Source of the DNA: an uncultured Pelagibacteraceae bacterium
GTDB lineage: Bacteria; Pseudomonadota; Alphaproteobacteria; Pelagibacterales; Pelagibacteraceae
Direction: 5' to 3'
NCBI GenBank assembly: GCA_902632275.1
Contig: CACPBW010000009.1
Location: 1-33,015, forward strand
DNA: 33,015 nucleotides
The translations under genes and the position numbers were made by a program. Each line of letters opens with the position of its first letter. The stretch's first letter is position 1. Shown piece after piece: positions 21,122 through 23,584 of the stretch. The notes below the pieces were generated by a model, which was not told where the DNA came from, ran no database searches, and saw nothing but the letters and a program-made list of their open reading frames with translations.

Positions 21122-22123
21122 TTATATCCAACTTGGAAAAGGTAGACCTTTTTCTTGAAGAAATTTTTTATTAAACAGCTTTGAGTTGTATTTATCTGAT
21201 CGATCACAGAGTATTGTTACAATAGTTTTTCCTGGTCCAAGCTTTTTACCCAATCTAATTGCTCCTGCAATATTTACCCCACAACTTGTTCCTAGACTTA
21301 AACCTTCATTTTGAATTAGATCATATAAAATTGGTAACGATTCTTTATCTTCAATTGAAAAAGCTCCGTCAATTTTAGCCTCTGCAAAATTAGCTGTTAC
21401 TCTACTTGATCCAATACCTTCTGTTATTGAATTTCCTTCTCCTTTAAGTTCTCCATTTTCAATATAATTGTATAAAGAAGATCCTGCAGGATCAGATAAA
21501 TAAATTTTTACATCTTTACTTTTTTCTTTTAAATAACTGCTCACACCTGCAATTGTTCCCCCAGTTCCAGAAGCGCAAACAAATGCATCTACCTTTCCAT
21601 CTGTTTGATCCCAAATTTCAGGTCCAGTTGTTTCATAATGGCCTTTTGAATTAGCAATATTATCAAATTGATTTGCCCAAACTACGCCATGATTGTTTGA
21701 ACTTTTTAACTCATCAGCAAGTCTTCCCGCAACTTTTACATAATTCCCATCATCTTTATATGGTTTTGGCGGGACAAGTCTTAAATCTGCACCAATATTT
21801 TTTAGCATATCTTTTTTTTCTTGTGTTTGATTATCGTTCATTACAATTACAGTTTTATAGCCAACTGAATTTCCTATCAAACATAGACCAATACCTGTAT
21901 TTCCAGCAGTGCCTTCAACTATGGTTCCGCCTTTTGATATTAGTTTTTTTTCTTCTGCGTCTTTAATTAAAGCTAAAGCTGCTCTATCTTTTACTGATCC
22001 ACCTGGATTTAAATATTCAGCTTTTCCATAAATATTACAGCCAGTAATTTCTGAGGCTGCTTTTAGTTTTACTAATGGAGTGTTTCCAATACCGGAGATA
22101 AAGTTATCCTGAGTGTTCTTCAT
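21122..22123 (-). CDS. cysK: Cysteine synthase
   Basis: [15 protein letters not shown] (PLP Lys), [33 protein letters not shown]. Confidence 0.93.
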
Positions 22124-22688
22124 TTTTTTCTTCGTTATTTATACCATAAGGTTTAAATTCTTCCGTTGCAGTTCCAACATTTTTAGCTGGTATACCTACC
22201 ATAACACCATTTTCAGGAACATCTTTTGTCACTACGGCATTAGCTCCAATTTTTGCGTTCTTTCCAACGGTTATTGGTCCTAAAACTTGTGCACCTGATC
22301 CGACTACAACATTATCTTGTAACGTAGGGTGTCTTTTAATTTCTCTTTGATTATCGGAATTTATACTTGGTGAGATACCACCAAGTGTTGCCATATGATA
22401 AATTGTAACATTGTCTCCTATATCTGATGTTTCACCTATTACAACTCCCATACCATGATCAATAAATAAATTTTTTCCAATTTTTGCTTTTGGATGAATT
22501 TCAATACCAGTCATAAATCTTGAAAACTGTGAAATTATTCTTGCAACTAAATCAAATTTTGCAATTGCAAAAAAATTTGCAATCCTATGCATAAATACAG
22601 CTTTCACTCCTGGATATGTTAAAATCACAGACAGCTTTGATTTTGCTGCAGGATCTCTTTTTATAATTGATTCTAAAAATTCATTCAT
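22104..22688 (-). CDS. cysE: Serine O-acetyltransferase
   Basis: [44 protein letters not shown] hexapeptide repeat; overlaps cysK. Confidence 0.9.
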
Positions 22689-22724
22689 AATTTTTTAATT
22701 TTTTAGGATTAACTAAAAACTACT

Positions 22725-22838
22725 TTAACAACAGCAACAAGTGTTTTCTGGTTTGCACAAACACTCTTTGCCGTTTTCACAAGCACAAGTGTCATTAGTG
22801 CAATTGGTACAAATGCATTTTGGATTTTTGCATGCCAT
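22725..22838 (-). CDS. Metallothionein-like Cys-rich micro-protein (MACKNPKCICTNCTNDTCACENGKECLCKPENTCCCC)
   Basis: Complete 37-aa ORF, 12 Cys including three CxC pairs and a terminal CCCC; not in the ORF track. Confidence 0.8.
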   Translation of the reverse strand: MACKNPKCICTNCTNDTCACENGKECLCKPENTCCCC

Positions 22839-22891
22839 AACAAAGATATAAATATTAATTGGCTAATTACAATACTTTTATTTACCGCAAA

Positions 22892-23584
22892 TTATAACTG
22901 TTCTAAAGTAAGCCCTTTAACATTAGCTGGGACTGCAACATCCATCATCTTAGGATTTGCTAGTTTTAGATTCTCCATTATCTCAGCATACTCTTCTTTT
23001 GAACTCACTTGTAATCTTGGGTTATTATTTCTCTCTGTTTCAATCGTTGAATACTTTTTACCGTTATAATCATGCGCTGGATAAACTAGAGTTTTTTCAG
23101 GAAGTTTTAATAATTTATTAAACAGTGAGTCGTAAGCATCAAATGAACTGCCATTTTGAAAATCTGTTCTTCCAGTGCCATTTATTAACAAAGTATCTCC
23201 AGTAAAAACTCTATCCTTCATAAAATAACTGTAGGAACAATCCGTATGACCTGGGGTATACATAGCTTTTAATTCTATGTTCTCAATATTAATTTTTTCA
23301 TTATCTTTAACTTTAATATCTATAACTTCTGATTTAGAATTTTCTCCCATTATTCGTGTACAGCTAGTTCTCTTATTTAACTCGTTTAGAGCAGTAATAT
23401 GATCAGCGTGAATATGTGTATCTATCACTTTAACTAATTTTAATTTTAACTTTTCTAAAATTTTTAAATATTCATTAGTGTGTTCAATAACTGGATCAAT
23501 AATTAATGCCTCTCGTCCCTCACCACTTGATATAATGTAAGTATAAGTTGAAGATTTAGTATCAAATAACTGCTCAAAGATCAT
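22892..23584 (-). CDS. ETHE1-like persulfide dioxygenase / metallo-beta-lactamase fold protein
   Basis: DTHIHADHITA, YTPGHTDCSYSY, GRTDFQNG, VYPAHDYNG. Confidence 0.87.
   Translation of the reverse strand: MIFEQLFDTKSSTYTYIISSGEGREALIIDPVIEHTNEYLKILEKLKLKLVKVIDTHIHADHITALNELNKRTSCTRIMGENSKSEVIDIKVKDNEKINIENIELKAMYTPGHTDCSYSYFMKDRVFTGDTLLINGTGRTDFQNGSSFDAYDSLFNKLLKLPEKTLVYPAHDYNGKKYSTIETERNNNPRLQVSSKEEYAEIMENLKLANPKMMDVAVPANVKGLTLEQL

Follow-up and report, generated by a model that had tools for sequence, protein, structure and literature searches.

Among described systems, the bacterial metallothioneins SmtA and BmtA (PF02069) are small, cytosolic, cysteine-rich proteins with CxC pairs, carrying about 9 cysteines plus histidine and often accompanied by an SmtB-type regulator. 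SmtA protects Synechococcus from zinc, with an SmtB/ArsR-type regulator absent from some metallothioneins of its type (PMC7387436), and bmtA banks zinc in the marine Synechococcus WH8102 (PMC9337993). MymT, the copper metallothionein of Mycobacterium tuberculosis, is likewise small, cysteine-rich and bacterial, and belongs to a lineage other than that of SmtA. In animals, the metallothionein alpha domain holds 11 cysteines in about 35 residues, binds an M4 cluster and has few aromatic residues or histidines. Short cysteine-rich reading frames are also described in another role: leaderless polycysteine attenuator ORFs, with contiguous cysteine codons ahead of a downstream gene, are reported from mycobacteria (Canestrari et al. 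2020, as cited in PMC9031893 and PMC9094748).

Here, we describe a 37-residue peptide with 12 cysteines that is encoded by a genuine gene that is conserved among some of the SAR11 bacteria of the ocean. SAR11 bacteria are the most numerous in the sea. The peptide resembles SmtA and BmtA in size, predicted location and CxC pairs, but has 11–12 cysteines and a CCC tail, and no SmtB-type regulator was found in the host genome (75% complete). MymT comes from a distant phylum and is likened to it by description only, while the animal alpha domain is similar in cysteine number but different in spacing, with no PDB sequence match. The ORF shares with the mycobacterial attenuators a short, predicted leaderless frame with contiguous cysteine codons, and differs from them in having a register along its whole length, no RNA structure found and persistence after the loss of cysE. 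We propose that it probably represents a new family of small cytosolic metallothioneins whose cysteine supply is co-expressed. The literature searched, drawn mainly from outside subscription journals, contained no SAR11 metallothionein.

A short ORF with a conserved cysteine register

In the window (the whole stretch of 33,015 nucleotides analysed), the metallothionein-like ORF occupies positions 22725–22838 of the minus strand, with its ATG at 22838–22836, sense codons down to 22728 and a stop codon at 22727–22725; the plus-strand frame over the same positions encodes a different peptide. The complete 37-codon, 12-cysteine frame was found as the preliminary description of this locus had quoted it, as was its place between a cysE-like gene and a metallo-β-lactamase (MBL)-fold gene that share its strand. 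The 4.0 kDa peptide contains no histidine and no aromatic residue. Against the 1.0% cysteine of the long ORFs of the window, the probability of at least 12 cysteines in 37 residues is 2e-15, and the highest cysteine fraction reached by ORFs of at least 25 residues in 100 Markov-1 simulated windows was 0.214, compared with 0.32 here. Conservation of the cysteine register is stronger evidence than composition that the ORF exceeds chance.

Homologues and a codon alignment define this register as C-x4-CxC-xx-C-x4-CxC-x5-CxC-x6-CCC in most members. A terminal CCCC had been described; the cysteine run is real, with CCC as the family rule and CCCC confined to some members. Over 40 aligned copies, the eleven cysteine columns have a pN of 0 and a pS of 0.82, with TGT and TGC both in use and third positions differing in most comparisons, whereas the remaining columns have a pN/pS of 0.64. 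The cysteines are thus essentially invariant over codons whose third base is free to change, the mark of selection on the peptide. A loose cysteine pattern served in part to collect the 40 copies, which favours an invariant-cysteine result, and members found by profile retain 317 of 319 cysteines over the eleven columns; two further profile-found members each carry one substitution (Cys3 to Tyr in L036, and CYC for CCC in L319). Non-cysteine positions also show preferences (N5, K7, N12, D16, P30 and E31), and one subfamily combines a three-codon deletion with an extra Cys15 while keeping the register on both sides. The suggested check of relatives for conserved cysteine codons thus came out in favour of the ORF, with the 11 columns kept across several Pelagibacteraceae genera.

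In composition, the 40 members average 30.2% cysteine, 0.33% Phe, Trp or Tyr and 0.52% histidine. Low mass, about 30% cysteine, CxC and CC motifs, few aromatics or histidines and 11 register-conserved candidate ligands are the features by which metallothioneins are recognized. None of 31 members matched Pfam (E ≤ 1) or NCBIfam, and PF02069 was absent from the host genome while being detected in a Synechococcus elongatus control, in keeping with the earlier remark that the layout is not of the SmtA type. No secondary structure appears in an AlphaFold model of the peptide (pLDDT 73), and a fold search with this model gave no PDB match; for a metal-free metallothionein, such results carry no information. 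Sequence matches in the PDB, to stretches of VWF and mucins (all E ≥ 0.045), were judged to be chance cysteine-rich similarity.

Gene neighbourhood

Directly downstream of the ORF lies cysE, encoding serine O-acetyltransferase (22104–22688, minus strand; TIGR01172 over its cut-off), followed by a cysK-like gene for cysteine synthase A (21122–22123, minus strand; NF007989 over its cut-off). Upstream is the MBL-fold gene (22892–23584, minus strand), which probably belongs to a separate transcript. It had been called a persulfide dioxygenase gene; the fold is present, and the name is a plausible guess because no curated NCBIfam cut-off was reached. The curated cut-offs missed by the protein include those of GloB and of the sulfur dioxygenase model.

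Across 42 distinct loci, cysE is the next downstream gene in 39, in two unrelated gene settings, and the MBL-fold gene lies upstream in 36. In the genus g7, a GcvT-/sarcosine-oxidase-like dehydrogenase gene is divergent and cysE–msrB lies downstream; in the six g7 loci no MBL-fold gene adjoins, yet the ORF and its promoter persist. The three exceptions to the cysE link, L025, L026 and L027 (genomes G368, G397 and G324), form a g7 subclade in which cysE has gone from the operon and msrB directly follows the ORF. No cysE was found elsewhere in these genomes (70–80% complete). Despite this loss, all three keep the peptide with its 11 cysteines and the promoter. The deletion may make these cells cysteine-dependent. 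No metal-related gene was seen among the neighbours of the ORF.

A predicted leaderless transcript shared with cysE

On the minus strand, a −10-like box (TATATC, 22845–22850) ends 6 nt before the ATG and is separated by a 16-nt spacer from a −35-like box (TTGTAA, 22867–22872). A TATA-type hexamer ending 5–7 nt before the ATG is present in 40 of 40 copies, a placement expected in 6.6% of shuffled upstream sequences and seen at 3 of 31 long ORFs of the window; TTG stands about 16 nt upstream of this box in 38 of the 40, and no copy has a Shine–Dalgarno core (0 of 40). The usual σ70 promoter geometry sets the transcription start relative to the −10 box, and the first transcribed base would therefore coincide with the A of the ATG or adjoin it. 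The sequence strongly suggests a leaderless mRNA from the ORF's own promoter that runs on into cysE–cysK. No conserved operator is evident.

The gap between the ORF and cysE measures 36 nt in the window (22689–22724) and 25–38 nt across loci. It contains no terminator, which makes cotranscription of the two genes likely. The ORF tail and downstream RNA are no more structured than shuffled sequence (mean z 0.10, 40 sequences), and the ORF/cysE region had no Rfam match. The preliminary description, correct in part, had missed how constantly the ORF accompanies cysE, its predicted leaderless promoter, and that a cysteine-responsive leader is a rival possibility.

Distribution and history of the family

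Homologues with an identical cysteine register occur in 9 of the 100 nearest relatives. A first profile detected the family in 27 of 347 Pelagibacteraceae genomes and a second in 30, or 29 (about 8%, the genome of the window included) once a match at E = 0.06 judged to be chance was dropped; the ORF is carried by 16 of the 140 genomes whose completeness is 90% or more. A class-wide sample of 337 gave one weak partial match and none that convinced, and a phylum-wide sample of 399 no member besides the window itself. Weak partial profile matches in other taxa (L037, L320 and L321) were judged to be chance. As far as sampled, the family is confined to the Pelagibacteraceae.

On a tree of cysE, the presence of the ORF requires 4 changes, compared with 16.2 when shuffled, and basal branches and genera carry it; the simplest history is therefore that of an old gene with several later losses. 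Most SAR11 genomes live without it. The sequence ahead of cysE was read in a number of genomes that had at first scored negative: G004 proved with the second profile to carry the short subfamily, and the others had no cysteine-rich ORF there. ORF-less genomes (L285–L304) show a conserved −10-like motif of the TAACTATATA type about 10–50 nt upstream of cysE, in two gene settings.

Metal genes of the host genome

In the 75% complete host genome, profile searches found no HMA domain (PF00403) and no ArsR/SmtB-type domain (PF01022), and one match to the Fur family. The HMA and ArsR profiles were positive in 13–14 of 14 control genomes (14 of 14 for PF01022), in which both are near-universal. With a quarter of the genome unseen, these absences are soft; subject to that limit, a metal buffer would not be redundant in this cell.

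Nine-cysteine peptides in viral contigs

Scanning IMG/VR for the core cysteine spacing yielded at least about 118 viral contigs with short nine-cysteine ORFs of the type MCNNPECKCENCTCDPCECSSENPCGC. Most of what the pattern search returned from genomes and viral contigs was low-complexity polycysteine frames, and only filtered ORFs were used. Among the matches listed (L202, L210, L219, L237, L271, L283 and L322–L430), the viral pattern is C-[ND]-N-xx-CxC-xx-CxC-xx-CxC-x5-CxC, position 13 of the core is always cysteine and the CCC tail is absent. The core C-x-N-x-x-CxC-x-x-C-x-[C/N]-x-x-CxC-x5-CxC is common to viral and SAR11 peptides, and the SAR11 locus L074 is intermediate, sharing even the extra cysteine of the viral form. 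Similarity outside the cysteines is modest (mean z of 1.64 against cysteine-fixed shuffles). Common descent of the SAR11 and viral peptides is possible.

One of the viral contigs resembles T4-like cyanophages and pelagiphage HTVC008M, and another resembles HMO-2011-type phages of SAR116, roseobacters and Pelagibacter; the cysteine pattern was not found in the stretches of pelagiphages HTVC033P and HTVC008M examined. Blast-type searches of the phage collection returned nothing useful, whether the query was the peptide, a viral relative or the viral genes; this negative is weak, as the low-complexity filter may hide peptides of this kind. The two SAR11-type and three viral sequences compared with PHROGs gave no match. 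The abundant viral family looks like a phage-borne metallothionein, and no phage metallothionein was reported in the mainly non-subscription literature searched.

Discussion

Metallothionein is the best reading of this peptide, and we infer metal binding from its sequence. Its 11–12 thiolates would wrap a metal cluster, with a capacity like that of the 11-cysteine M4 alpha domain of animal metallothionein; set in CxC pairs and a CCC tail, these thiolates would be enough to hold four divalent metal ions in a cluster or to form a Cu(I) core. Sequence does not distinguish Zn or Cd from Cu(I), and the lysines beside many of the cysteines lean towards a divalent metal as a rule of thumb only. The peptide may thus buffer metal in a streamlined cell with no detected HMA protein or ArsR/SmtB regulator, and the co-expressed CysE and CysK would supply the cysteine that it consumes, a single transcript matching supply to demand.

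The features of the transcript also allow a regulatory explanation, in which ribosomes slowing at the CCC run when charged Cys-tRNA is scarce would alter the translation or transcription of cysE–cysK. The predicted leaderless start, a C-terminal CCC run in all but one member, a distance of 25–38 nt to cysE, the next gene in 39 of 42 loci (msrB replacing it in 3), and the precedent of comparable mycobacterial leaders (PMC9031893 and PMC9094748) fit such a cysteine-responsive leader, and we consider it a possible but unlikely account. It leaves unexplained why conservation takes in all eleven cysteines and every spacing between them along 35 residues, well beyond the CCC run, and why L025–L027, having lost cysE, retain every cysteine with msrB next to the ORF. 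In addition, L319 has CYC in place of CCC, the upstream region that drives cysE in ORF-less genomes is an ordinary one and has no cysteine-rich ORF, and the tail and downstream RNA lack structure and a terminator, although a purely translational mechanism needs neither. A functional protein is favoured because the whole register is conserved, no RNA structure follows and the cysE-less clade has kept the peptide. The two roles could in principle be joined, in a leaderless metallothionein that also gauges cysteine, tunes cysE–cysK and shares ancestry with the widespread nine-cysteine peptides of marine phages, metal-thiolate peptides then passing between phages and SAR11; this composite we hold to be rather improbable.

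A role not in metal binding but in buffering thiols or persulfides or in storing cysteine, in concert with the MBL-fold (putative persulfide dioxygenase), peroxiredoxin and MsrB neighbours, would fit a neighbourhood of sulfur and redox genes in which no metal gene is found. A fixed CxC register is, however, unnecessary for such a role, and the ORF and promoter remain in the six g7 loci where the MBL-fold gene does not adjoin; we judge this explanation improbable. The lack of annotation in any family library searched would suit a chance cysteine-rich ORF or a peptide of another class, such as a secreted peptide or RiPP precursor. Pure chance origin is refuted by conservation of the ORF, which several genera maintain with its cysteine codons under extreme constraint, and neither a leader region nor modification enzymes in the flanks accompany it, leaving this group of explanations with very little probability.

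Automatic annotation is likely to miss the family, whether metallothionein or leader, because no family model matches it. Were the leader reading true, polycysteine attenuation would extend far beyond the mycobacteria. If, as the metallothionein reading holds, the peptide binds metal, these SAR11 bacteria would possess a metal buffer tied by its transcript to cysteine synthesis, in cells with no detected HMA transporter or chaperone.
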